NCBI RefSeq assembly: GCF_900129315.1
Contig: NZ_FQUS01000012.1
Coordinates: 1-64,000 of the forward strand
Length of the DNA stretch: 64,000 nt
Source: Fodinibius roseus
GTDB taxonomy: Bacteria > Bacteroidota > Rhodothermia > Balneolales > Balneolaceae
Direction: 5' to 3'
Under the pieces are notes generated by a model. That model made no database searches, was not told where the DNA came from, and was given only the letters and a program-made list of their open reading frames with translations. The position numbers and the translations under genes were made by a program. This document shows, one piece after another, positions 13,735-64,000 of the stretch. Position 1 is the first letter of the stretch, and every line of letters starts with the position of its first letter.

Positions 13735-13860
13735 GGCTAACCCGGATTTCTCACCAGGAAATTTGTACTTCAACAAGGCGAAGGAAAAATGCCAGCGCAG
13801 ACCTGCCCCCTGCACCCGCCACGCTATTGTTATCTTCAACGCCGCTGACCGGCAATGTTC
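13735..13860 (+). repeat. Interspersed repeat family B, copy 2 (right flank of glycosidase gene)
   Basis: Core 13740-13799 matches 12181-12240 closely. The similarity to copy 3 continues further right ('atcttcaacg' and 'ggcaatgttcg' here, 'tttttcaacg' and 'ggctcaatttcg' at about 34350-34381), so the original element was at least about 115 bp. It may be an insertion-sequence end or MITE remnant (inference). Confidence 0.65.
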
Positions 13861-13981
13861 GACGTATGTTGCATACTGTCATATTTTTTTGACCTTAAAA
13901 ATCGATATAAGGTTATCCGTATCATAAGATTACAACAATATATCATAAATCTTTGTGAAAAATACGGGCTAAAGCAACCTC

Positions 13982-18738: not shown

Positions 18739-18776
18739 CTGACCCTTTCATCATATCTAATCCTGCAAATAATGCA

Positions 18777-20665: not shown

Positions 20666-20690
20666 TCCCATGCTCTGCAACCATTAAAAT

Positions 20691-24151: not shown

Positions 24152-24214
24152 AATTTTCCGTTTTATATAAAAGATATAAGAAAGCTTTGTAAAACCGCTC
24201 ATTGGGCGAATTGC

Positions 24215-24320
24215 TGTATGTTCGTGCATGCACCATTCCCACCTGTGCTTTTATGCTGTGGTGTTGCATTCGCCCGGAGATTGACAGCGATTAATTTTCC
24301 GGTTTTCAAAGATTCTATAC
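24215..24320. repeat. Intergenic repeat family A, degenerate copy 3
   Basis: Shares 'attttccggttttcaaagat' and 'ttcgtgcatgcac' with copies 1 and 2, again between two sulfatase genes. Similarity is patchy. Confidence 0.35.
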
Positions 24321-24353
24321 ATTGGATGAAAAATAAAAAGGCGGTCTTATAGC

Positions 24354-25961
24354 CTATCGCTGTGGATGTTCAACACCGTATTGCTGCTGCAGCTCCCTGA
24401 TCTTTCCCTTGAGCTTTTCCTGCACCTCCCTGTACTCCGGGTCCCCATAAACGCTCTGCAGCTGCTCGGGGTCCTCCTGCAGGTCAAACAGCTCCCACTC
24501 GTCGTTCTCATAGAAATGGGCCAGCGTGTAGCGGCCGGTGCGCACTCCGTAATGGCGGGCGACCTTGTGAACGGCCGGGGGTCCTTCGTAATAGTGGTAA
24601 TACACAGCCTCGCGCCAGTCGGCCGGCTCCTCACCTTTCAGCAGGGGGACCAGCGAGCGGCCCTGCATCTGCCCGGGAATCTCTGCCCCGGCAAGATCAA
24701 GTATCGTGGGGGCCAAATCGAGGTTCTGGACCAGCTGCTTGCTGACCGACTCCGGGGCAATGCCCTCCGGCCAGTGGATGATCAGGGGCATGCGCATCGA
24801 CTCCTCATAGATCCAGCGCTTGTCAAACCAGCCATTTTCGCCCAAGAAGAACCCTTGGTCCCCCGCGTAGATCACCACCGTGTTATCCAGCAGGTTCTCG
24901 CGTCTCAGGTAGTCCATCACCCGGCCGACCCCGTCGTCCACGCCCCGGATCACCCGCAGGTAATCCTTCACGTAGCGCTGGTAGCGCCAGCGCAGCCGTT
25001 CTTTTTCGGACATTTGCCCGTAATCTTCGTAAAGCTGCTCGTTCTGCTCGCCATAAGCCTGCTCCAGGCGCTCCAGCTGCCGGTCAGTCAGCCGGTTGCG
25101 CTCGACCAGCCGGTCCCACCCCTCCGAGGGTTCCCCGGTTTCGGGGTTCCGGGGGACTTTAAGGTCCCAGCCCCAGCTCATGGTCGTTCCGATCTCCATA
25201 TCCTGCTCCCGAGCCGCGGTCGTCAGCCCGGAATAGTCGTAAAACAGGCTGGGGGGCTCCGGCAGGTCCCGGTTGCGGTAGTCATTCAGGTGATCCGGAC
25301 CCGGAAGCCAGTTGCGGTGCGGGGCCTTATGGTTGTAGATCATCATAAACGGGGTGCCCCGCTGCCGATCGTCCCGCAGCCAGCGCAAGGCACTGTCGGT
25401 GATCACCCGGCTGGTATGTCCCGCCCGGTCCACATCACCCTCCGGGGTGCGCATGGTCGGATTATAATAGGGCCCCTGCCCGTGCAGTACTTCATAATAA
25501 TCGAAGCCCTGCGGCTCAGTGCCCAGGTGCCATTTCCCGACCATGGCGGTCTGGTAGCCTGCCTGCCGGAGCAGTTGCGGGAATGTTTCCAGGGTTACGT
25601 CAATGGATTCCCCGTTGGTCAAGACCCCGTTCTTATGGCTGTGCATCCCGGTCAACAGAACGGCACGGGAAGGTTTGCAGATGGAGTTGGTGACAAAAGC
25701 ATTATCGAAGCGCATGCCCTCTGCGGCAAGCCGGTCGATGTTGGGCGTGGGCGAGTGATCCAGCTTGAGCCCGTACTCCAGAGCCTCCCGGTAGGCGCCG
25801 ATGGACTGGGCGGTATGGTCGTCGGAGTACATCACAATGATGTTGGGCGGGCTATTCCCGGGGTTTTTTTCCGCTTCTGCCTCCGTTGATTCACATCCCA
25901 GAGCTGCAATAGAAACAAGCACTAAAAGAGCAACGGAAGAGCATTCTCGAATAAAAAACAT
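24354..25961 (-). CDS. Type I sulfatase lipoprotein, N-acetylglucosamine-6-sulfatase-like (S1_11-like), copy B
   Basis: The open frame reaches 26021; the ATG at 25961 begins a lipoprotein signal (MFFIRECSSVALLVLVSIAALGC, split as a hydrophobic run then lipobox AALGC), giving 535 residues. Formylglycine site C-K-P-S-R from Cys95, metal SDDH at 46-49. It is a close paralogue of 8786-10477: long blocks such as LPEPPSLFYDYSGLTTAA and AGDQGFFLGENGWFDKRW are identical, and DNA similarity is obvious along the gene. The N-termini differ: this copy is a lipoprotein, whereas copy A has a plain signal. Eight genes separate the copies. Differing localisation could divide labour between the cell surface and periplasm (inference). 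Confidence 0.9.
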   Translation of the reverse strand: MFFIRECSSVALLVLVSIAALGCESTEAEAEKNPGNSPPNIIVMYSDDHTAQSIGAYREALEYGLKLDHSPTPNIDRLAAEGMRFDNAFVTNSICKPSRAVLLTGMHSHKNGVLTNGESIDVTLETFPQLLRQAGYQTAMVGKWHLGTEPQGFDYYEVLHGQGPYYNPTMRTPEGDVDRAGHTSRVITDSALRWLRDDRQRGTPFMMIYNHKAPHRNWLPGPDHLNDYRNRDLPEPPSLFYDYSGLTTAAREQDMEIGTTMSWGWDLKVPRNPETGEPSEGWDRLVERNRLTDRQLERLEQAYGEQNEQLYEDYGQMSEKERLRWRYQRYVKDYLRVIRGVDDGVGRVMDYLRRENLLDNTVVIYAGDQGFFLGENGWFDKRWIYEESMRMPLIIHWPEGIAPESVSKQLVQNLDLAPTILDLAGAEIPGQMQGRSLVPLLKGEEPADWREAVYYHYYEGPPAVHKVARHYGVRTGRYTLAHFYENDEWELFDLQEDPEQLQSVYGDPEYREVQEKLKGKIRELQQQYGVEHPQR

Positions 25962-26021
25962 AAGTAATAGAGAGTTATTTAATGGTGGTTTTTCTACACA
26001 AAACAGTTTTAGACAATTCAA

Positions 26022-34256: not shown

Positions 34257-34385
34257 CCCTGCCCGGATTATTCACAAAGAAATTTGTATGTGAATGAAGC
34301 GAACGAAAAATGGTGGCAGAAAGGTACTTATGTACCTTGGGCACGTCATTTTTTTCAACGAAGTGCACGGCTCAATTTCGCAGCC
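34257..34385 (+). repeat. Interspersed repeat family B, copy 3
   Basis: Begins 'gcccggattattcacaaaga' and shares 'gaaatttgta' and 'cgaaaaatgg'-type blocks with the copies at 12176 and 13735. Its first 18 bases from 34265 are identical to 44059-44076. This copy keeps internal inverted repeats, so it may be closest to the intact element. Confidence 0.6.
34321..34338. repeat. Perfect hairpin within repeat family B
   Basis: AAGGTAC-TTAT-GTACCTT: 7-bp arms around a 4-nt loop. It is not followed by a T tract on either strand, so it is not an intrinsic terminator. Confidence 0.7.
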
Positions 34386-34575
34386 CATTGCGACTGCACT
34401 AAACTTTGAGCTATACGTACTATTCGATAGGTCTATCAATAGCAATGGCTTACTCTTTAATTGTTACTATTTCGTGAATAATCCCGGACTGCTTTCCCTT
34501 CACTATTATAGAAACAGCGACCTGATAAAACTCTTGGATTTTTTTGAAATTTATTTCAGAAAGAAGGGAAATGTT

Positions 34576-43833: not shown

Positions 43834-43997
43834 AACATTGTCTGGATAAACCTGGCAGCAATGTTTATCCAGTATCGCATGGACACAGTTATTCCTCGAA
43901 CGATTGACATCTTAACCCAAGCTCAATTAATACCTGATTTTGAATACTATTTTGCTAAATTTTTACTCCCATCCGTTCCCATTTCTATGGGAGATCC

Positions 43998-44068
43998 TAC
44001 CTTTAGATTTTCTTTATAAAATCTAAATTATTTATTTAAATCAAAATCAATCTAAGCTGGATTATTCA
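43998..44068. repeat. Repeat family C, copy 1
   Basis: 71 bp that align without gaps to 49698-49768 (I count about 6 mismatches). It includes a perfect AT-rich inverted repeat TTTAGATTTT/AAAATCTAAA with a 6-nt spacer (44002-44027) and ends in 'ggattattcac', the start of repeat family B. It lies upstream of the module-2 sigma gene. Confidence 0.75.
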
Positions 44069-44087
44069 CAAAGAAAAGCGGTCTCTC

Positions 44088-47651: not shown

Positions 47652-47870
47652 ATTCCACCATGTTATTTATTTCAAATTGCATGCTAACCTCTTCACGATG
47701 ATCATGAAGCCGCATCTTTACCTCGCTTTAATCTTTCTTCAAGAATAACCCGCAATGAATACTTTATTTTTAGCTCTTTACCATTTGCTGCAAACAGAAC
47801 CTCAAGTGTGTGGCAACCTCCGGAAATAGCTGAATATGCTGTGACGGCATTAATGCTTTCATTCTTCCCT

Positions 47871-49229
47871 TCAGTCCCGAAGACTTTTCAGCGTTTGTTC
47901 CAGCTGCTTTAACGTGTTTCTATCCGTTTCACTCAGTTCAGTTTCATCAACCTCCACTGCATCCGTGGGATATGGTTTGACTCTTTTAAATTTTCCATCA
48001 TCCGTGACGATCCATTCTTTTGTACGCAGATAGCGTCCATTGGCCGTTTGGACATGAACCCACTCTTTGGGCTGATAAGAACCGTCATCACCGGTAAGGC
48101 TCTTAGCAAAACTTTTACCGTCGATCGACTGGTTTGGCAGCGGCGCACCGGTAATCTCACTTAAAGTAGGAAGAAAGTCAGCGGCCTCAATCAAATGGGT
48201 ATTTTCACTCCCGGGCTCAATTTTTTCTGGCCATCGTATCAGCAGGGGCACTTGTGATCCGCGGTCGGTAAGGGTGGCTTTCCCTCCATACAGCGTTTGC
48301 TCCTCAAATTTTGAATACAGATGCTGATCCGTACCGTTGTCAGTCAGAAATATCACTACCGTATTATCAGCAATTCCCAACCGATCCAGGGTTTCCAGGA
48401 GATGGCCAACGTTATAGTCCAGACGCCGAACCATATCCGGAAAATATTTTGGCACACCATAGTTTATACCCCGCTCAAGACTACCGGACAGGCTGGAATC
48501 TTTGCTGTCGGGGGTCGGTACCCAGGGGAAATGAGGCAGCAACGAAGTGTAGTACGCCATAAACGGACGGCCTTCCCGGTGGCTATCGGTTATAAAGTCG
48601 GTAAGAAAGTCAACCATAACATCCGGACCGTATCGATCGTTGATCTCTTCGTGAATAACCTTTCCATCCCTGCGATAGTATGGATTATGGTATCTCGTCG
48701 TCCGCTCATTATTCTCCGTCATGATTTGCCAGAACTGGTAGGTATCAAATCCAAAGTCACGGACCCAATCTTGTTTTGACAAAAACGAGAGCTGCCATTT
48801 GCCGGCTATAGCGGTTCTATACCCCGCTTTTTTTAACTGCCGGGCGAAACTTGGCTCGGATGTTTTTAACACATCATTTTTATGGCGCTCATAATCTGAT
48901 ATGGGAAAGAGGGTCTGCGTCCGAAACGGGTATCGTCCCGTCAACAGCTCAGAACGTGTCGGAGTGCAATAGGGATTCACAAACATGTGGGAAAACTTCA
49001 TCCCCTCTTTGGCAAGGCGGTCAATGTTGGGAGTTTCGACGAGTTCTCCACCATAGGCACTGATCCCATCGAGCCCGAGATCATCAGCCAGGATAAATAG
49101 AATATTGGGTCTATCTTTATGGACTTCCTTTTCTTTGCTAATCTTCGCTTCAGATGATGAAACTAATAAAAACAATAAGATTAACAGTACAATAGATCCA
49201 AGGTTTACAACCAGATGTGGGATTTTCAT
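47871..49229 (-). CDS. Type I sulfatase (arylsulfatase A-like)
   Basis: 452 residues, signal peptide about 1-28. Metal site ADD at 48-50; formylglycine site C-T-P-T-R from Cys88 in VNPYCTPTRSELLTGRYPFR. Unlike most sulfatases here, the GKW is followed by QLSFLSKQDW rather than HLG, so the substrate-pocket His usually seen after GKW is missing. TSLLPHFPWVPTP supplies the next His, and LTDNGTDQHLYSKFEE the metal site. It is moderately AT-rich and stands alone between the FAD genes (219 bp downstream) and the long spacer at 49230-50047. Confidence 0.87.
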   Translation of the reverse strand: MKIPHLVVNLGSIVLLILLFLLVSSSEAKISKEKEVHKDRPNILFILADDLGLDGISAYGGELVETPNIDRLAKEGMKFSHMFVNPYCTPTRSELLTGRYPFRTQTLFPISDYERHKNDVLKTSEPSFARQLKKAGYRTAIAGKWQLSFLSKQDWVRDFGFDTYQFWQIMTENNERTTRYHNPYYRRDGKVIHEEINDRYGPDVMVDFLTDFITDSHREGRPFMAYYTSLLPHFPWVPTPDSKDSSLSGSLERGINYGVPKYFPDMVRRLDYNVGHLLETLDRLGIADNTVVIFLTDNGTDQHLYSKFEEQTLYGGKATLTDRGSQVPLLIRWPEKIEPGSENTHLIEAADFLPTLSEITGAPLPNQSIDGKSFAKSLTGDDGSYQPKEWVHVQTANGRYLRTKEWIVTDDGKFKRVKPYPTDAVEVDETELSETDRNTLKQLEQTLKSLRD

Positions 49230-49697
49230 AAGTTTATTCCAAAATTACTTGTTATCGATATACTGGGGTCATTTACCCCATCCATAACCACCGGCTAAAA
49301 ATGACGCTCTAATAGGGAGTTCCCAACGGGTAAATTTCTTCTGTAGGATCCAGAGTCCGATCATTTATTTGATCCATCAACCGACTTATCTCTACTTGGG
49401 AGAGTTAAATAGGTAGTCTTTAATTTTTCTTTATTTCACGATATTTATCTTTTATATCATACACATCTTAATCACCATTTCCCGGCCGCATTTTTAAACA
49501 TCCACATGAAACATTAAACAGATATTTCGGTGCCAAATATAATGCGGCAGTCAACCGACTTTCAGTATAGGTTCTCTTGTGAATTGGTTTACCCATAACC
49601 ACAATATGTGTTCCGATACATTTTTGAAATACTTACTAATGATACTGTATGAAGCAAGGTTTTTATACAGCGCATTCCCCCATTTCTAAAAATATCT

Positions 49698-49768
49698 TAC
49701 CTTTAGATCTTCTTTATAAAATGTTAATTATTTATTTAAATCAAAATCAATCTAGTTTGGATTATTCA
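49698..49768. repeat. Repeat family C, copy 2
   Basis: Near-copy of 43998-44068, offset exactly 5700 bp. The block 'tttatttaaatcaaaatcaa' is identical in both. In this copy the AT-rich inverted repeat has decayed, and the right end runs into the 32-bp palindrome. Confidence 0.75.
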
Positions 49769-49784
49769 TGAATAATCCAAACTA
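49753..49784. repeat. Perfect 32-bp palindrome
   Basis: Two 16-base arms with no spacer: TAGTTTGGATTATTCA followed by its exact reverse complement. Each arm contains GGATTATTCA, the beginning of repeat family B. This looks like two element ends joined head to head, or a strong dimeric operator. Confidence 0.9.
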
Positions 49785-49940
49785 AACGTACTTACTAATT
49801 TGAAAAGAAAAATAGAACCAGTATAAACCGCTGGGTGGGAATGAGATAAACAGGATAGAGATCACCCGGGCAAAGACGGTGTTGACCATCAACATCAGGA
49901 TCAGGATAATAAACAAAGACAGGATCCGGACGATTTATCT
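49784..49940 (-). pseudogene. Possible remnant of a membrane-protein gene
   Basis: About 51 sense codons on the minus strand encode a very hydrophobic peptide (segments ILSLFIILILMLMVNTVF and ISILFISFPPSGLYWFYF) ending at a TAG that abuts the palindrome. It is preceded by a stop and has no domain I recognise. It looks like the C-terminal end of a transporter, but the call is weak. Confidence 0.25.
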
Positions 49941-50047
49941 TATAATTCGTCTTCGTCAATTTAAAATAAATAATTCCTGCATAGAATTATTCTTAGATAT
50001 GGACCTGCCATGGCAAAAATATTGTGTTCTTCTCCTTCTTAGGAAGG

Positions 50048-52267
50048 TCATTTTATAATTGGCGAGAGCCCCTCCTGCAGGGGGACCGTGGCCGTAACAG
50101 GGGGTTCGCCCTCCACCTCCACGCGGATCCTGGCCTGCCGGGGGGTAGCCTCCAGCAGCGTTGCCCGCACGGGCGGGACCTCCCCGCCGGCGGGCGTCAA
50201 CACCCAGCCGAAGACCGCATCGCCGTCGATCTCCGCCCTGTAGACCGCCGTGGGATTCGGGGTTTTCCGGCCATAGGTCTCGCTGTACCATCCCTGGATA
50301 ACCGGCTCCGTTTGGCCCTCTACAACCTCCAGCGTCCACTCCATGGCACCGGGACCGGCCGGGGTGATGCGCAGGTTGGCCCCGCCCGGGCTGGTCGAGA
50401 CCACCTGCCGGTGCCCCTCGCTTTGCAGCGGCAGCCCGGGGGCATAATGCCACAGGGCCTGAATTTCACGCGGGCGATCCGTGGCGATGCGGTCCACTAC
50501 CACCCAGTATCGTCCCCGCACATACAGCACCGCGCGGGTATGGGCCGCCCCTCCCGCGGCCCCGGCATAGGCTCCCCCGTAGGTGCCACGCGCGTAGTCA
50601 AAACCAGGCCTGTTCAGGTAATCGTCCCCGGATACCAGGGCCGCTTCGGCCCGGTTGGATTCGCTGGTTTGTCCCCCTCCGTCGACCAGAATCACATTAT
50701 GGGAAAATGAGCTGCGAAAATACCCCCGCCAGGTGGTCGGGTCAAAACTAAAGTAGTTCTCATGGGTATAGCGTCCCCCGTCCACCAGCAGGTCCCGCCC
50801 GTAGGCGGACACCGACAGGTGCAGCTTGTCGCTGTGCTGGTGGCCGGTGCCGAAGGGACCCGTATCAAAGAACCCCCACTGGGCCTGCGGGCCCCACCCA
50901 TCGCGCATCACATGAATGCCGGCCCACGGGAAAACCGCCGACGGCACACCCCCGGGCGGCTGTCCCTCCCGGCCGTTGGTGGCAATCCAGCGCCAGTCCG
51001 GCCGCCCGTATGTGCCGGCGGCTTCCAGGACTCTCGGCCGGAGATCCTCCCGGTCGGAATCATTGTTCAGCGGCTGGTGTCCGTCGGGGCGCATGCTGTA
51101 GGCCAGGTACCGGTACATCTGCTCCAGCCGCTCCACATAGCTCCCCGGGACCGCCTGTCCCGCTTGCATAAAATTATCCGCCAGCGACTCAAAGCGCTTT
51201 AACGCTGTCCACTGAATCTTTGTTGATAGTTCTGTTTGAACTCCATCTGGATATACCTGATTATTGATTTCACCCTCCATTACCTCAAGAGCATATTGAG
51301 TCCAATCTTCCGCCTTTCTGAATTCAGGAAAAGCAAGTCCAATTAGGGAAAGACCATGCATTTCTAAAATAGTCCAATTACTTCCCTCTTTATGATATTC
51401 CCGCAGGTACCCGGCATGTTCGGCAATACTTGAAAGCATAAGCAGGCGAGTGGCTGGAAGTAAATCTTCGGATTGTTGAAATCCATAAAATATTTGAGGC
51501 CAGGTAGCGCCCATACGAACTCCCGCTTCTAAATCTCTCCACCGGACCTCCGTGATATCCCTCCAGTCCAGGGTTTCCGTGGACGTATTGAGCACCATAT
51601 ACATCGAATCCTGTTCACTGGGCAGTGGATTGTGAATGATCCAGTCTCTCATTATAGAATCAATTTTTTTTATATATTCATCCTTTTTAATACTTATACC
51701 TGCCTTATATAAAGAGACTAGATATTCGTGTGCATTTAACTTATATGCTACCTCTTTATCTTTCTCTGGTCCTTTGAAATCCCACTGCCACCCTCCTTTA
51801 TCATTGGAAGGTATAGTTAATTGAGTTCCACTGATATTAACAGAGTTATCTAAGAGTTGATTTGCCTCTCTAAGAACAGAAGTCTCTAAAGAATTGAAAG
51901 ACTTATTCCTCAGCCATAAACCAGAGTCGGATTCTTTGTAATACGCTATTAAAGATTTGGCGGCCTTAACCGTATCCCCATTTTGCACGGCTACCCTCAC
52001 TTTTTCGAGTCCCGCTTTATCAAGATCCAGCTGTTCCATCAGAAATCGAACCCGGTCCGGATAAGCACCCCAAACCTCTTCAACGCTCCTTATCGCCCTC
52101 CAGTCTGTTGAATCCTCCGTGAGTTCGGCGGACAGTAAAACCCTTTCTTCTGCCGTACCCACTATCTTATCCTCTGTTATACCTGCAGCTGTATTCACAA
52201 CCGTAACAGGAGGTACGGCTAAAAAGGTTATGGCAGCCCATAGAATAAAAGAAATATAATTATACAT
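50048..52267 (-). CDS. Heparinase II/III-fold polysaccharide lyase, chimeric copy A
   Basis: 739 residues, signal peptide about 1-28. An alpha-helical toroid domain (about 60-400), with the family block NWTILEMHGLSLIGLAFPEF, precedes the beta-sandwich Hepar_II_III domain (PF07940), with GTGHQHSD (His476, His478), RYTHENY (Tyr500) and SSFSHNVILVDGG (His523) as likely catalytic and metal residues. It would cleave uronate-containing chains by beta-elimination; the same fold occurs in alginate, heparin and some ulvan (PL40-type) lyases. From about codon 354 to the end the DNA is almost identical to the gene at 62717, while the first half is AT-rich and diverged. The composition change falls at that point, so the gene is a recombinant. 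Confidence 0.88.
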   Translation of the reverse strand: MYNYISFILWAAITFLAVPPVTVVNTAAGITEDKIVGTAEERVLLSAELTEDSTDWRAIRSVEEVWGAYPDRVRFLMEQLDLDKAGLEKVRVAVQNGDTVKAAKSLIAYYKESDSGLWLRNKSFNSLETSVLREANQLLDNSVNISGTQLTIPSNDKGGWQWDFKGPEKDKEVAYKLNAHEYLVSLYKAGISIKKDEYIKKIDSIMRDWIIHNPLPSEQDSMYMVLNTSTETLDWRDITEVRWRDLEAGVRMGATWPQIFYGFQQSEDLLPATRLLMLSSIAEHAGYLREYHKEGSNWTILEMHGLSLIGLAFPEFRKAEDWTQYALEVMEGEINNQVYPDGVQTELSTKIQWTALKRFESLADNFMQAGQAVPGSYVERLEQMYRYLAYSMRPDGHQPLNNDSDREDLRPRVLEAAGTYGRPDWRWIATNGREGQPPGGVPSAVFPWAGIHVMRDGWGPQAQWGFFDTGPFGTGHQHSDKLHLSVSAYGRDLLVDGGRYTHENYFSFDPTTWRGYFRSSFSHNVILVDGGGQTSESNRAEAALVSGDDYLNRPGFDYARGTYGGAYAGAAGGAAHTRAVLYVRGRYWVVVDRIATDRPREIQALWHYAPGLPLQSEGHRQVVSTSPGGANLRITPAGPGAMEWTLEVVEGQTEPVIQGWYSETYGRKTPNPTAVYRAEIDGDAVFGWVLTPAGGEVPPVRATLLEATPRQARIRVEVEGEPPVTATVPLQEGLSPIIK
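50061..51206 (-). repeat. 1.15-kb near-identical direct duplication, left copy
   Basis: Matches 62736-63881 with an offset of 12,675 bp. I see only scattered single-base differences, for example near 50089, 50092, 50216 and 50992. The match ends inside the last codons on the left and around codon 354 on the right. Confidence 0.93.
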
Positions 52268-52310
52268 AGTACGGACATACAGAACTTTGAATCAAAATAC
52301 CAGCTCACAT

Positions 52311-52318
52311 TTTGTCCC
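52311..52318 (-). promoter_or_regulatory. GGGACAAA motif upstream of lyase copy A
   Basis: One-base variant of the GGGACAAT motif, 43 nt before the lyase start codon. The distance differs from the 68-73 nt seen at 7.4 and 8.5 kb, so it may be chance. Confidence 0.15.
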
Positions 52319-52396
52319 TCCTTACTGCTCCGTTGGGATCCATCTTAACCGTTTAAAGTGCTATCGGGACCAGGGGGACGGTATACTTATATGACG

Positions 52397-53803
52397 CTAT
52401 TGTTGCTCCTTTTTTTCCGGCTCCGGCAGCTCCGCTCCCACTTCCCTGGCAAGCTCTTCTATCTTGCCCTGCAGCCGGTCCACAATCCCGGGATGCTCCT
52501 CCGCCCGGTTCCACCGCTCGCCCGGGTCGTTTTGCAGGTTGAACAGCTGGGGTTCCGGCTCCATAATGCGCAACTTCCACGGCCCCTCCCGGTACGCCTG
52601 CAGCTGTCCCCGCAGAAAATAGGGATACTCCTTGCGGGGCGAGGCTTCCTGCTCTCCCTTCAAAAAGGGCATCAGATCGTAGCCGTCCAGGGTATGATCG
52701 GGCAGATCTGCCCCGCCCGCCTCCATCAGCGTCCGGTAGATATCCGGCATCCCCGCAAGCTCATCGGTCACCTGTCCGGCGGGAATCTGACCCGGCCAGC
52801 GAATCATCGCCGGTACCCTCGTGCCGCCCTCGTAGGTAGTAGCTTTATATCCGCGCAGCAGCCCGGGCGAGCCCGTATGCCAGTGCTTGTTGCCTTCCTG
52901 CAGCATCCGCTTCGGAAGGTTGTTCCACGGACCGTTGTCGGAAGCAAAAAACACAATCGTATTTTCAGAGAGTCCTTCGGACTCCAGGGCCTCCAGAACC
53001 CGGCCCACGCTCCAGTCGATGGTTTCGATGACATCCCCGTAGTAGCCCCCGCGCGACTGCCCGCGAAATTCCTCCGTGGTGTGAATCGGCAGGTGCGGCA
53101 TGTTGTAGGCCAGGTAGAAGAACAGCGGCTGGTCCTCCCCGGCCCGGGAGGTGATAAAGTCGACGGCCTCTTCGGTGTATCGGACCGTCAGGGAATCCTG
53201 GTTAACCGGATGCTCTACCATCTGTGTCCCCCGGTACAGCCCCAGCGGCTCCTCGGTCTGAACCCACGGCTTGCGGTAGTCATTGGAATAGGGAAGCCCC
53301 AACCAGCTGTCAAAACCCTGGTTGGGAGGCAGAAACTCCTCTTCCATATACCCCAGGTGCCACTTGCCCGCCATGCCGGTGGCATACCCGGCCGCCTGGA
53401 GCCCTTCGGCCAGCGTCACCTCGCTGTCGGGTAGCCCCCCTTCCCCGTCGGAGCCGGTGCCCCCGCCCAGGTCCACCCGCGGCAGGTGACGTCCGGTCAG
53501 CAGCTCCGTACGCGAGGGCACGCACCAGGAGGCGGTGACAAAGGAGGTAAACCGCACCCCCTGCCCGGCCAGACTGTCAATATTCGGGGTCGCAATCGTA
53601 GGGTGCCCGTAACTGCTCAGATCACCATACCCCATGTCATCGGCGAATAAAATAACAATATTCGGCGGCTGTCCCTCGTCTGCTGCCTGCTCTCCGCAAC
53701 CGGCGAGGCCTATGCATGAAAACAGTAACAAAACGATGCCTGCGATTCGGGGGAACGTGCGCTGTTTAAAATTTGAAAATACCTTACTACTATTATGCAA
53801 CAT
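52397..53803 (-). CDS. Type I sulfatase lipoprotein (arylsulfatase A-like)
   Basis: 468 residues with lipobox LAGC (Cys36). Metal site ADD at 54-56, formylglycine site C-V-P-S-R from Cys94 in ASWCVPSRTELLTGRH. GKWHLGYMEEE, LAYNMPHLPIHTTEEFRG and ASDNGPWNNLP follow, then QLFNLQNDPGERWN. It shares the 'YNMPHxPxxxxxxFxGxSxxGxYGDVIExIDWSVGxVLxAL' arrangement with the sulfatase at 57836, so those two are paralogues. Stop to next start: 129 bp to the lyase at 52267; it starts 30 nt after the HEAT-sulfatase stop, so those two genes are one operon. Confidence 0.9.
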   Translation of the reverse strand: MLHNSSKVFSNFKQRTFPRIAGIVLLLFSCIGLAGCGEQAADEGQPPNIVILFADDMGYGDLSSYGHPTIATPNIDSLAGQGVRFTSFVTASWCVPSRTELLTGRHLPRVDLGGGTGSDGEGGLPDSEVTLAEGLQAAGYATGMAGKWHLGYMEEEFLPPNQGFDSWLGLPYSNDYRKPWVQTEEPLGLYRGTQMVEHPVNQDSLTVRYTEEAVDFITSRAGEDQPLFFYLAYNMPHLPIHTTEEFRGQSRGGYYGDVIETIDWSVGRVLEALESEGLSENTIVFFASDNGPWNNLPKRMLQEGNKHWHTGSPGLLRGYKATTYEGGTRVPAMIRWPGQIPAGQVTDELAGMPDIYRTLMEAGGADLPDHTLDGYDLMPFLKGEQEASPRKEYPYFLRGQLQAYREGPWKLRIMEPEPQLFNLQNDPGERWNRAEEHPGIVDRLQGKIEELAREVGAELPEPEKKEQQ

Positions 53804-53833
53804 ACTGATATTAGGTTATTTAATTATTGAATC

Positions 53834-55714
53834 TTATTCTGCGACCAGTCTCGAGGCGGCCCGGTGCACATAGTTGCCGGTCCCGTCACTGCCTTCGTAT
53901 TGTTCGGCGAGGGCACGCAGCCGCTCGGTCAGCTCCCCGGGAAACGGATCCGAGCGTACCGTCTCCAGAAAGTTGATCGCCCGCAGTTTCACATGATCAT
54001 CGGGATGCTCGAGGCTCTCCCCGAGCATGCCGAAGGCTTCCTCCCGGCGACCCAGCGCATACAGCGCTTCCGCAACGGCGACCCGGACCACCCCCGACGG
54101 ATCATCAGTGCGCTCCAATAGCTGTTGCTCGTAGGCCGAGGCGTGCTCGTGGCCGATCGCCAGTCCCATCGCCGCCCAGTACCGCACCGAGGGATCTTCG
54201 TGGTCCAGCCGGTCGGCCAGCTCCCCTATATGGTCGTCCACGCCCCGCGAGGCCATCTCGGCGGTTCGAATAATCTCCCCGAGGGGGACTTCATCCTCGC
54301 GGACCGCCTCGACCAGGGGGCGTTCGCCGCGGAGAGGATCGATAATACCCTCCGGGATGAAGCCCACATCCCGCTGCCCGCGGATCCATTCCCGGTTGGC
54401 TTCCCGCAGCCGCCTCAGCTCTTCCTGATATTCCGGGTCGTCCGCCAGGTTATGGACCGTGTAGGGGTCGTCGGAGAGCTTATACAGTTCTTCGGCCGGC
54501 TTGGGCTCAAAAAAGCGGCGCTGGATTTCATCCAGGGTGCCCGCCTGATATTCCGTATGCCAGCTCTGCATCGAGGGCGCTTTCCACAGGTACCACAGAT
54601 GCTGCCCGTATATCCGCTGGGGCATGTAGTTTCGGACATACAAAAACTCTTTGTCATGGACCGCCCTCACCAGGTCGTACCGCTCGTCCATGCGTCCCCG
54701 GTACGTATGCACATACTCCCGGGGGACAGCTTCGTATTCCCCCAAAAAGGGTCTGCCGTCCATAAATTCGGGCGGTTCGATGCCGGCCAGGCTCAGCACT
54801 GTCGCCGGGAAGTCCACAAAGGAAACCAGCCGGTCGGTGCGGGGGTCCTCCGGGGCCAGGTGCCGGTATTTCGGGGGCACATACACCATCAGGGGCACCT
54901 GCAGCCCCCGCTGGTTCATAAACCGTTTGGAGCCGGGCACCGCTCCCCCGTGATCACCGTAATAAAAGATAATGGTGTTTTCGGCCTCGCCGGAGGCTTC
55001 CAGCTCTTCGAGGATCTCACCTACCTGGCGGTCCATCCGCGTGACTTCATCGTAATAGTGGGCCCAGTCTTTCTTCACGGCTTCCGTCTGCGGGTGGTAG
55101 GGGGGAACCGGCGCATGGCCGGGATCATGAATCAGCGTATCAATGGGATCGTGCAGGCTGCTCTCGTGGCTGATGGTAATATTGCGTACATGGAAAAAGG
55201 GCTGGCCCTCTTCGCGGTCGCGGTAGTGGGCTTCCCCGCTGGACTCATCCCAGGCCCCGGGCTGGTCCACCGTATTGTAATCCTTTTTCCGGTTGTTGGT
55301 CGTATGATAGCCCGCCTCCTGCAGGTAGTGCGGGAAAAAACGGATCTGCTCCGGGATGGGAAAGCGGCTGCGCATATTTTCGGTGCCCATCCGGTTGGCG
55401 TAGGTGCCGGTGATCAGGGTGAACCGGGAGGGTGCGCATACGGGCGTGGTGGCATAGGCGTTCTCATAGACCGTGCCCCGCTCGGCCAGCCGGTCGAGAT
55501 GGGGTGTATCCGCATAGTCGTCCCCATACGCCCCGAGAATCGGACTGTTGTCCTCGCTGGTTATCCACAGGATGTTCGGCGGCGGCAGCTCCTCCAGGGT
55601 CTCTTCCGGAGAGTCTTCCGTGGATTCCCCGCAGCCGACCAGGCCGCAAACCAGCAGCAGAATCAATCCCGTTCCTGTGATAGATGTCCAAATTCTTTTC
55701 CCTGTCCAATTCAT
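53834..55714 (-). CDS. Type I sulfatase lipoprotein fused to HEAT-like repeats (S1_8-like)
   Basis: 626 residues; lipobox LVGC (Cys28). The first metal motif is TSED (52-55) rather than DD, as in many sulfamidase-like enzymes, and the formylglycine site is C-A-P-S-R from Cys93. YYDEVTRMDRQVGEILEEL and YYGDHGGAVPGSKRFMNQRG are S1_8-type blocks. From about 500 to the end the protein is helical repeats (DHIGELADRLDHEDPSVRYW, HPDDHVKLRAINFLETV), i.e. HEAT-like units as also seen in the cytochrome lipoprotein at 4606. The repeats may mediate complex formation. It lies 284 bp downstream of the next sulfatase. Confidence 0.9.
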   Translation of the reverse strand: MNWTGKRIWTSITGTGLILLLVCGLVGCGESTEDSPEETLEELPPPNILWITSEDNSPILGAYGDDYADTPHLDRLAERGTVYENAYATTPVCAPSRFTLITGTYANRMGTENMRSRFPIPEQIRFFPHYLQEAGYHTTNNRKKDYNTVDQPGAWDESSGEAHYRDREEGQPFFHVRNITISHESSLHDPIDTLIHDPGHAPVPPYHPQTEAVKKDWAHYYDEVTRMDRQVGEILEELEASGEAENTIIFYYGDHGGAVPGSKRFMNQRGLQVPLMVYVPPKYRHLAPEDPRTDRLVSFVDFPATVLSLAGIEPPEFMDGRPFLGEYEAVPREYVHTYRGRMDERYDLVRAVHDKEFLYVRNYMPQRIYGQHLWYLWKAPSMQSWHTEYQAGTLDEIQRRFFEPKPAEELYKLSDDPYTVHNLADDPEYQEELRRLREANREWIRGQRDVGFIPEGIIDPLRGERPLVEAVREDEVPLGEIIRTAEMASRGVDDHIGELADRLDHEDPSVRYWAAMGLAIGHEHASAYEQQLLERTDDPSGVVRVAVAEALYALGRREEAFGMLGESLEHPDDHVKLRAINFLETVRSDPFPGELTERLRALAEQYEGSDGTGNYVHRAASRLVAE

Positions 55715-55998
55715 GGTTTTATCTGTTAATGCGAATATGGGTTAGATAACTGTTTATAAAATGGCTGTCCCGTGCATAAAGTCCATCCTCCGATCCTTGC
55801 CGACAAGTACATCCATCTCTGCAAGCTCTGGGGGCGTACCGGAGGTACCCGCAGATCCCATGACCGGTAAAAATAGTATAAAAAATTATTGACTCCCCCC
55901 GGCGGCCGTTGGGTAAGAGAGGGATCGGGCAATCATATCCCGTTTTAAAAACCTGAACCCTGACCAATTAACAAAATCTAATTCAAAAATAACAATCT

Positions 55999-57567
55999 TC
56001 AATCCTCTTTCACCGGCAGCACCCATTCCGGGGCCGGGAATTCCCGCATGGGTCCCCGGAGACGAGGGTAGCTTTCCCACACATCACCGTCACCGGCCAC
56101 GCGCGGATCTCCTGTTTTGTTGAGAACTCCCCTCAACCGCTCCCGGAAACTTTGGGTAAGCTCTTCGTATTCGGGATCCAGCGCCAGGTTGTTGATACAG
56201 GCGGGATCCTTCTTAATATTGTATAGTTCTTCAGCGGGACGCCGGCCAACGGCCAGGTGCAGGTACCGGTTGAAATAGGGATCATCGGCCTGTTCCGTCA
56301 TCACCTCCAGCGCGGGAGCGGCGTCAATATCGTGATAGCCGCTGTGCATGGGAGTCAGCTGTCCATCTTCAATGCGGCGCGGACTCCCGGCCGGCCATCG
56401 CTGGGGGGCGAAGTTCCGGATGTAGAGGTATTGATGCGTGCGCAGGGACCGCTGGGGGTACCCCAGGTGGTTCCAGCGGGAACTCGAGTGACGCTCCCGT
56501 CCCGAATAAACCGCCAAGCGGGAGGGATCCACGATGCCCTCTTCGGAGGAGGTCAGGATATTCATCAGGCTCTTTCCGGTCATCACGTATTCGCCCCGGT
56601 GCTCGACCCCGGCCGCCTCGAGAACGGTCGGCATAATATCGATTAAACTGACCAGATCCTCAACCACGCGTCCCCCTGCCACGTGCTCCCCCCATCTTAT
56701 GGCCAGCGGCACGTGAATCCCGTCCTCATAGAGGTTCGCCTTGGCCCGCGGGAACGGCATCCCGTTGTCGGAAGTCACAATAATCATGGTATTTTCAAGC
56801 TCACCCCGCTCCTTCAACAGTGCGAGCGCTTCTCCCAGGTGCCGGTCGAACCATTCGATTTCAACAGCGTAATCGAGCAGATCGCCTCGCACTTCAGGCG
56901 TATCCGGCAGGTAGTCCGGCACCTCCACATCCTCAAGCTTTTTGCCCGCCGCCCGGCCTATACCCTCTTCATAGGCCCGGTGCGGTTCGGAAGTGCCCAG
57001 CCAGAAATAAAAGGGAGATTCCTGCGGACGCTGTTCCAGGAAAACCCGGAAGTTGCCCGCATAATCGGTATCGCGTATATAGTCATGGGGCGGGGTAAGC
57101 TCCTCATCCTGGAACGCAGGTCCCGCCGGATTCCGCTCCCTGCCCCCCGCCTCCCAGTCCCCCGGTCCCCATCCCTTGCCGGTATAGCCCACCGTGTATC
57201 CCGCTTCTTCAAGCAGGTCGGGCAGTACGGTATATTTCTCAGAAAACGAACTGGCGTGCGTCCCCGCGGCCTCGTTTTGCCAGGGATATCTCCCCGTCAG
57301 TATCGCAGCGCGCGAGGGACTGCAGCCGGGTGAGGCCACAAAACCATTCATAAACAAAATGCCTTCCCCGGCCACCCGGTCGAAAGCAGGGGTATCCACA
57401 AACTCCGATCCGTAGGCCGAGGCGTGCGGAAAGGACTGATCGTCGCTGATGACAAACAGGATATTGGGACGCTGCTCCTGGGCGTGACCGGATATCCCCC
57501 AGCATGTGATCAAACTCAAGAGCAGTATTTTCTTAGCAAGGAAACCAAACGAGCGAACAGTGTTCAT
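55999..57567 (-). CDS. Type I sulfatase, sulfamidase-like (S1_8-like)
   Basis: 522 residues, signal about 1-30 (GISGHAQ). Metal site SDD at 41-43, formylglycine site C-S-P-S-R from Cys82 in ASPGCSPSRAAILTGRYPWQ. The GKGWGPGDWE block in place of GKWHLG, the GTSEPHRAYEEG block and TSDNGMPFPRAKANLYEDG place it with the heparan N-sulfatase-like group together with 10639 and 53834. GC-rich. A 268-bp gap separates it from the next gene upstream, and 284 bp from the HEAT-sulfatase. Confidence 0.9.
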   Translation of the reverse strand: MNTVRSFGFLAKKILLLSLITCWGISGHAQEQRPNILFVISDDQSFPHASAYGSEFVDTPAFDRVAGEGILFMNGFVASPGCSPSRAAILTGRYPWQNEAAGTHASSFSEKYTVLPDLLEEAGYTVGYTGKGWGPGDWEAGGRERNPAGPAFQDEELTPPHDYIRDTDYAGNFRVFLEQRPQESPFYFWLGTSEPHRAYEEGIGRAAGKKLEDVEVPDYLPDTPEVRGDLLDYAVEIEWFDRHLGEALALLKERGELENTMIIVTSDNGMPFPRAKANLYEDGIHVPLAIRWGEHVAGGRVVEDLVSLIDIMPTVLEAAGVEHRGEYVMTGKSLMNILTSSEEGIVDPSRLAVYSGRERHSSSRWNHLGYPQRSLRTHQYLYIRNFAPQRWPAGSPRRIEDGQLTPMHSGYHDIDAAPALEVMTEQADDPYFNRYLHLAVGRRPAEELYNIKKDPACINNLALDPEYEELTQSFRERLRGVLNKTGDPRVAGDGDVWESYPRLRGPMREFPAPEWVLPVKED

Positions 57568-57835
57568 AATCCAACATTTTTAATAGTAAGCATTAACATA
57601 GCTCATAACGAAATATGTATCTTGGCTTTCTCTTTCGGGCCAGCGAAAAAGCGTGCAAAACAGGCGCTGACCACGCCGCATCTGTCCTGAGATATCCGGG
57701 AAGATAGAAGGCTGCCCGGCGAGCCCACTTCGCAAATTACATGAGAACATAACGTTTTAATTTATATTTAAAAGTACTATAGTCCATCCTCATAGGGTGG
57801 TGTATTGTAATTTCGTTCTTTTGGGGGAGCAGGCG

Positions 57836-59179
57836 TTACTCTTCCTCTTCCCTGGCCAGCGGTTCGAGTTCCTGCCTCCCTCTTTCCAGCCGTTTCACCA
57901 TCTCTTCGACCACCCCGGGCTGCTCCCGGGTATAGCTGAACTGTTCGGAGGGATTGCACTCCAGGTCGAACAGCAGTCCCGGGTCATAGTAATGAGGCTC
58001 CCCTCCCCGTTCCCCCTCGAAGCGGGTCAGTCCCCGCCGGTAGTAGGAACGGACCACAAACTTCCAGCGCTGGGATCGTACCGCGGTGATCTCCTGGTTG
58101 TTGAAGAAATAGAGATACTCGTGAGGCGACTGCTCTCCGCCCTGCAACACCGGCCAGATATTCTTCCCGTCGATGGTCCGGTCCCCGGGCACTTCTGCCC
58201 CGGCCAGTGCCAGCAGCGTGGGAAACAGATCAAAGTTCATCGTAATCGCATCCGAGCTGACCCCCGGTGGAATCTGTCCGGGCCAGCGGGCAATTAACGG
58301 CACGCCCTGTCCCCCTTCCCAGCTTGCCGCCCCCTTGCGGTCGCGCAGCCGGCCGGAGCTGCCCTCGAACCATGGACCGTTGTCGCTGGTAACAATGACC
58401 AGGGTGTTCTCGTCGATGCCCTGCCGCTCCAGGGCTCCGAGCACTTCTCCCACGCTCCAGTCGATCTCCTCGATCACATCCCCGTACAAGCCCGCTTTAG
58501 ACCGTCCCTGGAACGCCTCGGAGGCATACAGCGGCACATGCGGCATCGAATGGGCCAGGTAGAGGAAAAACGGTTCATCCGGCTGCTCTTCGATAAACTG
58601 AACGGCCTCCCGGGTATACCGTTTGGTGAGGGTGGTCTGATCGACAGGCTCTTCAAGAACTTCCTTGTTGCGGTACAGCGGAAGCGGACTCATATCATTA
58701 CTGTAGGGCAGCCCGTAAAAATAATCGAAGCCGTTGCCGGTGGGCCAGGAGACATCAACCGTTCCCAGATGCCACTTGCCCACCATGCCGGTCCGGTATC
58801 CCTCCTGCCTGAGGGCCTCGGCGAGGGTAACTTCCTCGTCCGGCAAGCCGTGATTATCATCCGGAAACAGCACGCTGTGGGCCAGTCCCGTCCGGATGGG
58901 ATACCGGCCGGTCAGGAGTCCCGCCCGCGCCGGGGTGCACACGTTGGCACTGGAGTAATGGTGGGCCAGTTTGACTCCTTCGGCTTCCATCCGGTCGATA
59001 TGAGGCGTCTGGATCAGCGGCGAGCCGGAGCGGCCGACATCCCCGTAGCCGAGATCATCATTAAAGATGATGATGAAATTCGGGTGTTCGCCGGCTTTGT
59101 CCCCCTGGGCGAAAGCATTTACAGGCCCCAGTGCAAAAAAAACTATCAAAGTAAAGGCTATAGCTACGTTTTTAAACAT
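57836..59179 (-). CDS. Type I sulfatase with C-T-P-A-R active site
   Basis: 447 residues from the ATG at 59179, which starts a clean signal peptide (MFKNVAIAFTLIVFFALGPV, ending AFAQ); an ATG at 59209 is also open. Metal site NDD at 40-42; formylglycine site C-T-P-A-R from Cys81, i.e. Ala where Ser or Thr usually sits, which known variants tolerate. GKWHLGTVDV, LAHSMPHVPLYASEAFQG and TSDNGPWFEGSS follow. It is paralogous to the sulfatase at 52397. Its C-terminus is acidic (LAREEEE). 268 bp to the next gene downstream. Confidence 0.9.
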   Translation of the reverse strand: MFKNVAIAFTLIVFFALGPVNAFAQGDKAGEHPNFIIIFNDDLGYGDVGRSGSPLIQTPHIDRMEAEGVKLAHHYSSANVCTPARAGLLTGRYPIRTGLAHSVLFPDDNHGLPDEEVTLAEALRQEGYRTGMVGKWHLGTVDVSWPTGNGFDYFYGLPYSNDMSPLPLYRNKEVLEEPVDQTTLTKRYTREAVQFIEEQPDEPFFLYLAHSMPHVPLYASEAFQGRSKAGLYGDVIEEIDWSVGEVLGALERQGIDENTLVIVTSDNGPWFEGSSGRLRDRKGAASWEGGQGVPLIARWPGQIPPGVSSDAITMNFDLFPTLLALAGAEVPGDRTIDGKNIWPVLQGGEQSPHEYLYFFNNQEITAVRSQRWKFVVRSYYRRGLTRFEGERGGEPHYYDPGLLFDLECNPSEQFSYTREQPGVVEEMVKRLERGRQELEPLAREEEE

Positions 59180-59209
59180 GGTGTTTTTTTTATCAGTTAG
59201 TGTATTCAC

Positions 59210-59519
59210 AGGTTGTTAATCGGAGGGGAGTCGGCAGGTTTTCTTTCCAATTGCTGGCCTATTGCCGTATTCCCCGAAAAGAAAAAAAATTAACGGGTAC
59301 CATAAGATTATAAGCGAGGCCTTTGTATATACTTTGTATTTAAAATCCATCCTTAAAAGCATCTTTTGATCTATTCCCTGATATTACCCGGTTTATTTTA
59401 ACTACTGAAAAATTATAAGCATACCAACTTTTTTGCCTCCGGGCTGAATTATTTCAGTTTAATCCCAGCCGCCATGGGGACAACCTTCCTGCAGATTGAC
59501 TGCCGGTGGGGAACAAGGA
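59210..59519. other. Intergenic region between two sulfatases
   Basis: About 310 bp, AT-rich, no gene and no terminator or promoter consensus that I can identify. Confidence 0.4.
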
Positions 59520-61085
59520 TTATTCTTCTACTCCGATCTCCCCGGCCCACTCCTGCCATTGGGATGCCAATCGATCGACCACATCCGGGTGCTGTTCGGC
59601 CAGGTTCGTTGTTTCCGTGCGGTCGGTCTGCCGGTCATACAGCTCCCAGTCATCCTCCCAGCGCACCAGCTTCCACTTTCCGGTCTGAATAGCGCGTCCA
59701 CTGTTCCACTCGTAATACAGCGGCTGCTCGCGCTCTATGGAATCTCCCTTAAGCAGGGGAAGCAGGCTGACGCCTTCCATGGGATGCATGGATTCGCCGC
59801 GGTACTCGTCGGGATAGTCCGCCCCGCTTACCTCAACGAGCGTGGGCATGATGTCGATAAAATGAAGCAGGCTGTGATCAATTTGTCCCCCTTCGGAGAT
59901 GACCTCCGGCCAGTGAACGATAAAGGGCGTGGCCGTGCCCCCTTCGTGGGAGTAGTTCTTGTAGAAACGGAATGGGGTATTGGCCACGTTGGCCCAGTCT
60001 TCTTTCAGCGAGGCCCACCGGGTCATGCTGCCTATGGGTCCCTCCCCGATTTGCACGACCTCGGATGAGGCGCCGTTGTCGGAGGCAAACATGAGGAGCG
60101 TATTGTCCAGCTCGCCCCGCTCTTCGAGGTAATCGAGCAGTCGCCCGATATTCTGATCCAGCCGGTCGATCATGGCGGCATAGACCTGCATCCGCCGCAG
60201 CTGGTCGGCCTTCGTGGAGTCGTCAAGGTCTGACCAGGGGCGGTGGGTCGGCTTTGATCGCGGGTAGCGCTCGTCGAGCAGTCCCATCCGGCGCTGTCGC
60301 TCGTAGCGGGCCCGGGCAATAGCCTCATAACCGACGTCATACACTCCTTCGTATTTCTCGATATCCTCCCGTGGGGCCTGCAGCGGATCGTGCGGGGCCT
60401 GGTAGGACAAATACAGCATAAAGGGCCGGGGGTCCTCTTCATAGCGGCCCAGCAGCTCCAGCGCCCAGTCGGTCCAGCTGTCGGTGCCGTAGTAATCCTC
60501 CGGGGGCGTGTAGGGTTCAGCCAGCGAGTCGTCGAATGCAAAGATCCGCGGGTAAAAGCCCTGTTTCTGGGCAGGGGGACCCGGGTCCCCGGGACGCTGC
60601 TCACCGGGATTGAAGTAGTTGGCCGCCCCGTCGCGCAGTCCCCAGTAGTGATCAAAACCCCACTCGTAGGGATTATCCGTACTGTGATGCTTTCCCACAA
60701 AAATGGTAGTGTAATCGGCCCCGCTGAGCACTTCCCCGAACATCACCGCCTGCTCGAAATCCCCCGGTGACTCGCTCATCCCCACCCGCTGGGCATATTG
60801 TCCCGTCAGGAGCACCGCTCGCGAGGGAAAACATTTGCTTGTATTATGCATCTGGGTAAACCGGATACCGTTGTCCGCCAGCCGGTCCAGATTCGGGGTC
60901 TCTATTTCGGATCCGTATGCCCCGATATCCGAGTAACCGAGGTCATCGGCCAGGATGAACACGATGTTGGGCCGGGGAGATTCATTTCGGTCCCCGGACG
61001 CCTGACCGCAGCCGACAAGCATGGAGGCGACAAACAACAATGTTACAGGATATACGCAGTATTCTAATAAGAGCCTGGAATTCAT
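59520..61085 (-). CDS. Type I sulfatase lipoprotein (arylsulfatase A-like)
   Basis: 521 residues, lipobox LVGC (Cys26). Metal site ADD at 46-48; formylglycine site C-F-P-S-R from Cys85 in NTSKCFPSRAVLLTGQY. GKHHSTDNPYEWGFDHYWG replaces the usual GKWHLG, LSYQAPHDPLQAP gives the substrate-side His, and ASDNGASSEVVQIGEGPIGS the second metal site. The C-terminus has ELYDRQTDRTETTNLAEQHP. It lies 20 nt after the phosphoesterase stop, so the two are cotranscribed; 310 bp precede the next gene downstream. Confidence 0.9.
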   Translation of the reverse strand: MNSRLLLEYCVYPVTLLFVASMLVGCGQASGDRNESPRPNIVFILADDLGYSDIGAYGSEIETPNLDRLADNGIRFTQMHNTSKCFPSRAVLLTGQYAQRVGMSESPGDFEQAVMFGEVLSGADYTTIFVGKHHSTDNPYEWGFDHYWGLRDGAANYFNPGEQRPGDPGPPAQKQGFYPRIFAFDDSLAEPYTPPEDYYGTDSWTDWALELLGRYEEDPRPFMLYLSYQAPHDPLQAPREDIEKYEGVYDVGYEAIARARYERQRRMGLLDERYPRSKPTHRPWSDLDDSTKADQLRRMQVYAAMIDRLDQNIGRLLDYLEERGELDNTLLMFASDNGASSEVVQIGEGPIGSMTRWASLKEDWANVANTPFRFYKNYSHEGGTATPFIVHWPEVISEGGQIDHSLLHFIDIMPTLVEVSGADYPDEYRGESMHPMEGVSLLPLLKGDSIEREQPLYYEWNSGRAIQTGKWKLVRWEDDWELYDRQTDRTETTNLAEQHPDVVDRLASQWQEWAGEIGVEE

Positions 61086-62716: not shown

Positions 62717-64000
62717 TCATTCTGTTTCTACCAACGGCGAGAGCCCCTCCTGCAGGGGGACCGTGGCTGTGACAGGGGGTTCGCCCTCCACCTCCACGCG
62801 GATCCTGGCCTGCCGGGGGGTAGCCTCCAGCAGCGTTGCCCGCACGGGCGGGACCTCCCCGCCGGCGGGCGTCAACACCCAGCCGAAGACCACATCGCCG
62901 TCGATCTCCGCCCTGTAGACCGCCGTGGGATTCGGGGTTTTCCGGCCATAGGTCTCGCTGTACCATCCCTGGATAACCGGCTCCGTTTGGCCCTCTACAA
63001 CCTCCAGCGTCCACTCCATGGCACCGGGACCGGCCGGGGTGATGCGCAGGTTGGCCCCGCCCGGGCTGGTCGAGACCACCTGCCGGTGCCCCTCGCTTTG
63101 CAGCGGCAGCCCGGGGGCATAATGCCACAGGGCCTGAATTTCACGCGGGCGATCCGTGGCGATGCGGTCCACTACCACCCAGTATCGTCCCCGCACATAC
63201 AGCACCGCGCGGGTATGGGCCGCCCCTCCCGCGGCCCCGGCATAGGCTCCCCCGTAGGTGCCACGCGCGTAGTCAAAACCAGGCCTGTTCAGGTAATCGT
63301 CCCCGGATACCAGGGCCGCTTCGGCCCGGTTGGATTCGCTGGTTTGTCCCCCTCCGTCGACCAGAATCACATTATGGGAAAATGAGCTGCGAAAATACCC
63401 CCGCCAGGTGGTCGGGTCAAAACTAAAGTAGTTCTCATGGGTATAGCGTCCCCCGTCCACCAGCAGGTCCCGCCCGTAGGCGGACACCGACAGGTGCAGC
63501 TTGTCGCTGTGCTGGTGGCCGGTGCCGAAGGGACCCGTATCAAAGAACCCCCACTGGGCCTGCGGGCCCCACCCATCGCGCATCACATGAATGCCGGCCC
63601 ACGGGAAAACCGCCGACGGCACACCCCCGGGCGGCTGTCCCTCCCGGCCGTTGGTAGCGATCCAGCGCCAGTCCGGCCGCCCGTATGTGCCGGCGGCTTC
63701 CAGGACTCTCGGCCGGAGATCCTCCCGGTCGGAATCATTGTTCAGCGGCTGGTGTCCGTCGGGGCGCATGCTGTAGGCAAGGTACCGGTACATCTGCTCC
63801 AGCCGCTCCACATAGCTCCCCGGGACCGCCTGTCCCGCTTGCCCGAAATTATCCGCCAGCGACTCAAAACGCTTTAACGCCACCCACTGTGTTTTCGTGG
63901 ATAACTCCGTCTGGGTGCCGTCGGGGTATACCTGATTGTTAATTTCTTTCTGCATCACCTCGAGGGCGTAGCGGGACCATGCTTCGGCCTGCTGAAATTC
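62717..64000 (-). CDS. Heparinase II/III-fold polysaccharide lyase, copy B (partial, 5' end beyond window)
   Basis: The reading frame is open to the window edge at 64000, giving 427 residues; the start lies further right. It carries the full beta-sandwich catalytic half with the same GTGHQHSD, RYTHENY and SSFSHNVIL blocks as copy A. It ends LSPLVETE, where copy A ends LSPIIK. Beyond the near-identical part (right of 63881) the protein stays homologous to copy A (YALEVMQKEINNQVYPDG) but the DNA is GC-richer and clearly diverged. Uniform composition on both sides of that boundary suggests this is the donor and copy A the recipient. A GTG at 63958 is an in-frame internal codon, not a likely start. 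Confidence 0.88.
   Translation of the reverse strand, partial: EFQQAEAWSRYALEVMQKEINNQVYPDGTQTELSTKTQWVALKRFESLADNFGQAGQAVPGSYVERLEQMYRYLAYSMRPDGHQPLNNDSDREDLRPRVLEAAGTYGRPDWRWIATNGREGQPPGGVPSAVFPWAGIHVMRDGWGPQAQWGFFDTGPFGTGHQHSDKLHLSVSAYGRDLLVDGGRYTHENYFSFDPTTWRGYFRSSFSHNVILVDGGGQTSESNRAEAALVSGDDYLNRPGFDYARGTYGGAYAGAAGGAAHTRAVLYVRGRYWVVVDRIATDRPREIQALWHYAPGLPLQSEGHRQVVSTSPGGANLRITPAGPGAMEWTLEVVEGQTEPVIQGWYSETYGRKTPNPTAVYRAEIDGDVVFGWVLTPAGGEVPPVRATLLEATPRQARIRVEVEGEPPVTATVPLQEGLSPLVETE
62736..63881 (-). repeat. 1.15-kb near-identical direct duplication, right copy
   Basis: Partner of 50061-51206 in the same orientation. Recombination between the copies would delete or loop out about 12.7 kb holding five sulfatases and the PhoD-like enzyme. 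Confidence 0.93.

Follow-up and report, generated by a model that had tools for sequence, protein, structure and literature searches.

A perfect 32-bp palindrome in the window (the whole 64,000-nucleotide stretch of Fodinibius roseus DNA analyzed here) is very probably what remains of an IS1380-type MITE that had been inserted at a CTAR target and was subsequently stripped of its interior. Both the insertion and the deletion at 49753–49784 are events that we infer from sequence comparison, with a dispersed element family in the same genome and with transposons of related bacteria as reference points. The reading would account for a striking palindrome by ordinary transposon decay, not by a new control signal.

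A solitary perfect palindrome

The sequence at 49753–49784, TAGTTTGGATTATTCATGAATAATCCAAACTA, is identical to its own reverse complement, with two 16-bp arms and no spacer, just as a sequence-only reading of the window had described it; the bordering bases, C and A, are unpaired and end the symmetry. No other spacer-free palindrome in the 64-kb window has arms of at least 9 bases (four have arms of 8), and the longest arms from 60 first-order Markov simulations of 64 kb (30 with global and 30 with local composition) measured 10, bearing out the earlier view that a palindrome of this size is unexpected by chance. Each arm contains GGATTATTCA, of which the window holds five copies (34265 and 44059 on the plus strand, 34475 on the minus strand, and both arms) compared to 0.28 expected; the sharing with 34265 and 44059 claimed previously was hence confirmed. 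After this shared stretch, both arms run on as CAT and the other copies as CAC. GGATTATTCAC proper occurs in the window at 34265, 34474 and 44059 only and not in the palindrome arms.

Of the 26-bp core, the F. roseus genome contains just this one copy (3 mismatches allowed), and of the 20-bp core no further copy turned up in 92 Balneolaceae genomes, that of F. roseus included (1 mismatch allowed), which gives no support to the suggestion of a strong, recurring binding site. The palindrome lies between co-directional genes for a heparinase II/III (50048–52267) and a sulfatase (47871–49229), 263 bp beyond the former and more than 520 bp before the start of the latter. That it is a selected site, whether as operator for a dimeric regulator or as a hairpin formed by minus-strand RNA transcribed between these genes, seems highly improbable: the predicted RNA hairpin is stable (−14.6 kcal/mol, z −6.2) and the minus strand was flagged as terminator-like, but the sequence is unique in its own and the 92 family genomes, offers only three G-C pairs and a poor T tail (TGATTTTGAT), and the distances to both neighboring genes likewise argue against such a role. 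Most likely, the palindrome has no selected function now, and we take it as neutral; isolated perfect palindromes need not be operators.

The hydrophobic coding remnant that the palindrome had been said to abut proved to be a fragment, about 100 bp in length, of the gene for carbon starvation protein A (cstA); the remnant is thus real, but it starts 45 bp to the right of the palindrome rather than adjoining it. This fragment is isolated, flanked by two polysaccharide-degradation genes. A gapless 1255-bp duplication (50061–51315 and 62736–63990; 96% identical), spanning the 3′ portion of the heparinase II/III gene, starts 277 bp to the right of the palindrome. Rows of sulfatase-like genes extend over 8700–26000 and 47800–61000 (Pfam-confirmed for 47871–49229 only), and repeat families D1, D2, D5 and others correspond to conserved sulfatase gene segments.

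Two element ends fused by their inner sides

Dissection of the palindrome and its flanks gave the layout CTAG/TTTGGATTATTCA-TGAATAATCCAAA/CTAA, i.e. two element ends whose inner sides are fused into 26 bp (Table 1). As the target CTAR is almost self-complementary, it extends the pairing by three bases at either end (13 + 13 + 3 + 3 = 32), and the fourth flanking pair fails because the right target copy reads CTAA. The palindrome tips, TTT/AAA, deviate from the family tip, CCY.

The sequence-only reading had also likened the palindrome to two ends joined after transposition. A junction of this kind, whether from a circle, from tandem copies or from an abortive transposition event, would agree with two family ends being directly joined, but is extremely improbable given their polarity. 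A circle or tandem junction would set the outer tips (CCYGG) face to face. In the palindrome, it is the inner sides that meet, with the tips pointing to the chromosome, which excludes a tip-to-tip junction; the outward tips beside CTAG and CTAA look like a single inserted element and fit one that lacks its interior.

Table 1. Coordinates of the palindrome, its parts and related features in the window.
Feature	Position	Strand	Remarks
32-bp perfect palindrome	49753..49784	.	Probable collapsed element (49756–49781) plus three symmetric target-duplication bases per side
Putative target duplication, left copy CTAG	49752..49755	+	Sequence; the family as a rule has 4-bp YTAR duplications
Left terminal repeat TTTGGATTATTCA	49756..49768	+	Agrees with family CCYGGATTATTCA
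Right terminal repeat TGAATAATCCAAA	49769..49781	-	Agrees with right end ATTATTCATGAATAATCC of intact copies
Putative target duplication, right copy CTAA	49782..49785	+	3/4 bases same as left copy
Left flank and left end, duplicated at 43978–44068	49679..49768	+	87%; sequence comparison
Left element end GCTGGATTATTCACAAAGAA of the sister copy, no credible right end	44056..44075	+	Sequence
Complete 226-bp MITE (CCCGGATTATTCAC ... GTGAATAATCCCGG)	34262..34487	+	CCTG/ACTG outside
Complete 228-bp sister-group MITE (CCCGGATTTCTCAC ends)	13741..13968	+	Locus L105; CTAA duplication
cstA gene fragment (flank, outside the element)	49829..49928	-	Matches cstA genes of other Balneolaceae

A dispersed MITE family in Fodinibius roseus

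The 5.08-Mb genome (64 contigs) contains 33 copies of GGATTATTCAC, the inner portion of the terminal inverted repeat CCYGGATTATTCAC, compared to a single copy of the reversed control pattern. The extended end TAACCYGGATTATTCAY produced 88 + 84 matches in this genome vs. 4 + 5 for the control (up to 3 mismatches), and a 281-bp query around 34265 produced 45 (E up to 10, the weakest of which may be due to chance). The genome-wide search that the sequence-only reading had called for thus returned both further copies and, as detailed below, likeness to insertion-sequence ends, not the absence of both that was to count against it. Its notion of a palindrome built from an element end holds: a MITE family dispersed in the genome, with ends of the IS1380 type, has the arm as its terminal repeat.

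The family consists of short non-coding elements of about 50–240 bp (candidates 53–237 bp) with CCYGGATTATTCAC inverted at both ends. Loci gathered from most of the listed sites comprised 40 regions and 80 loci, many of them overlapping. Among 37 paired-end candidates of at least 50 bp, 35 carried terminal inverted repeats at both ends with no more than 4 mismatches over the two ends together and were kept for counting duplications, while L031 (99 bp) and L092 (125 bp) were dropped for excess end mismatches; the 11 rows below 50 bp that were excluded from the count are mostly right ends paired with themselves. Identical 4-bp flanks were found in 9 of the 35 candidates. Re-pairing predicts 2.2, and 2000 rounds of it did not once reach 9; the observed rate is lowered by probable chance pairs still present in the set (e.g. 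L033, 96 bp; L078, 157 bp; L047). The other 26 have no identical 4-bp duplication. At flank lengths of 2, 3 and 5 bp, identity was seen once each, and at longer ones never. YTAR flanked these 35 candidates in 16 cases on the left and 13 on the right; the insertion target of the family is approximately YTAR, with a 4-bp duplication. YTAR is also the target of the IS701 family.

Shortened members of 61 and 68 bp are present as well, both with perfect duplications. All in all, the family has the properties that define MITEs, being multicopy, short and non-coding, with terminal inverted repeats and target duplication (three of four bases at the palindrome itself). When a longer left-end piece was scanned across the named genomes, it was found in Fodinibius salsisoli, which is classified in Balneolaceae, Balneolota, and in an uncultured Aliifodinibius. 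A sister MITE group (the copy at 13741–13968, L085, L095 and L106) has ends approximating CCYGGATTTCTCAC and duplications of CTAA (CTAA/CTAT at L085); its ends resemble those of L126, an IS1380 element of a relative.

Ends shared with IS1380 transposons of relatives

Judged by their ends, which are shared with transposase-bearing IS1380 copies in relatives, the elements are IS1380-type MITEs. A search for the IS1380-type transposase domain PF13701 returned no match, and hence no partner transposase, in the F. roseus genome; 14 of the 92 Balneolaceae genomes did contain matches. L126 is a 1702-bp element with two identical 14-bp ends (CCTGCATTTCTCAC) and CTAG on either side, and in L131 the two ends match (CCTGAATAATTCAT) and are flanked by TTAG/CTAA. 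At L127 and L128, the MITE end CCCGGATTATTCAT adjoins IS1380 transposase genes; the other end is absent from the L127 locus, and L128 has a shortened transposase gene and mismatched flanks. The two proteins tested, those of L126 and L127, are IS1380 family transposases (NCBIfam NF033539). Exact MITE ends were hit five times in IS1380 loci, at three distinct places (L153 repeats L128), and not at all in 20 Markov surrogates. Since most of the other loci among the 30 returned from relatives show no matching end pair, and given the defects of L128, the elements are assigned to the IS1380 type and not to one identified parent.

An IS630/Tc1-type MITE, suspected from the TA at both edges, was rejected in view of CCGG, TTAG and TCAG duplications and a lack of DDE_3 (PF13358) in the F. 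roseus genome. A PF01609 transposase was rejected as a partner as well; its one locus in this genome (C42) is surrounded by only three poor, unpaired end-like matches.

Probable collapse by internal deletion

Left ends of the family read GGATTATTCAC and right ends ATTATTCATGAATAATCC, the latter at six places besides the palindrome. Both ends contain the 8-bp ATTATTCA in the same direction (left GG-ATTATTCA-C, right AT-ATTATTCA-TGAATAATCC). In the proposed course of events, an intact MITE would have inserted at CTAR, duplicating the 4-bp target, and slippage or recombination between these direct repeats would then have deleted one repeat together with all that lay between. The expected product, GG-ATTATTCA-TGAATAATCC, is self-complementary because the element ends are inverted repeats, and the near-symmetric CTAR would lengthen the symmetry to 32 bp. 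More generally, inverted ends, one of which holds a direct repeat of the other, may collapse into near-perfect palindromes in one step.

In silico deletion at the longest exact repeat of both ends generated the exact 20-bp core GGATTATTCATGAATAATCC in 6 of the 37 candidates, four of which (L075, L077, L078 and L079) used the full 8-bp repeat; the remaining 31 gave no core. Deletion alone leaves the like change of both tips (TTT/AAA vs. CCY) unexplained, and it is our guess that the equal tips might have arisen when an imperfect palindrome was later corrected on its own hairpin as template. Elements of a ~95-bp class look like products of a deletion running from the left end to a partial copy of that end in the interior. 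This internal copy matches at 15 of 18 bases in L070 (shuffle maximum 14 in 500) and at 10 or 11 of 18 in five other long copies, which is roughly what was calculated for chance in L070; as L070 alone exceeds chance, the class is a weak precedent for the collapse.

A 91-bp duplicated stretch, absent from the sequence-only reading, ends inside the left arm of the palindrome and matches the left flank of the 44059 copy. This sister locus comprises the shared flank, an intact left end and then CACAAAGAA, which supports an originally complete left end at the palindrome. It also bears on the alternative that only a truncated right end was ever present, whose 16-bp palindrome ATTATTCATGAATAAT, known from intact right ends, grew to 32 bp through template switching (hairpin-templated correction), no deletion between two ends being involved. 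Such an origin, favored by the six other occurrences of ATTATTCATGAATAATCC and by literature summaries describing template switching that evens out inverted repeats, appears unlikely, for the left arm and its flank match 43978–44068, where a left end with CACAAAGAA comes after that very flank, and the CTAG/CTAA flanks suit a two-ended element. Neither an empty nor a filled orthologous site was found in relatives with three first-look candidates scored per genome: a 1601-bp query matched 15 relatives, always in the sulfatase side or the cstA fragment and never in the palindrome segment.

A hairpin common to full-length copies

An imperfect hairpin of ~115 nt beside the left end is common to 14 full-length copies (12 in the F. 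roseus genome plus L083 and L084). Its carriers include 34262–34487, 13741–13968, L060, L067, L077 and L085, and so span both end types. Of the cells in the hairpin alignment, 90.7% are paired vs. 81.4% after shuffling, 16 of 34 pairs have changes on both sides (shuffled mean 9.1), and the covariation score is 0.348, with slid structures reaching no more than 0.090. The margin over these controls is overstated, because one and the same alignment served to predict the structure and the copies are related to one another. Such covariation could also arise from template switching between the arms. A search of five loci against Rfam, including the palindrome-bearing L001, returned no match up to E = 1. 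We tentatively suggest, while regarding it as rather doubtful, that the family is kept or spread partly through this hairpin, as structured RNA or DNA, and that the palindrome is the form after loss of the module. If this were true, the palindrome would show that ends alone can persist.

Comparison with known mobile elements

With the present analysis, an IS1380-type MITE family is described in Balneolota. Among the titles and abstracts consulted, none describes such MITEs in Balneolaceae; an earlier publication may nonetheless exist. Like members of the IS1380 family (NF033539/PF13701), the elements have same-type terminal repeats, with a CC-rich tip followed by GGATTATTCAY or GCATTTCTCAC, and a 4-bp duplication, which for the complete element L126 is CTAG. 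Unlike those members, the palindrome relic is 26 bp in length and devoid of a transposase, and its own genome harbors no IS1380 gene. Correia/NEMIS, RUP and ERIC-type repeats are comparable in being short, interspersed and non-coding and in combining terminal inverted repeats with a potential to form hairpins. Correia and RUP elements, however, have a TA target and IS630-type ends, whereas the target here is a 4-bp YTAR and the F. roseus genome has no DDE_3 transposase.

According to one study (PMC10813416), the piggyBac superfamily targets the 4-bp TTAA and variants of it, TTAG and CTAA among them, and IS1380 transposases serve as its outgroup; the likeness is one of target only, piggyBac being eukaryotic. 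Bacterial MITEs (e.g. MITEAba12) are similarly short, non-coding and multicopy, with terminal inverted repeats and target duplications but no transposase; what sets the present case apart from them is that the ends are of IS1380 type and that the relic consists of two ends alone.
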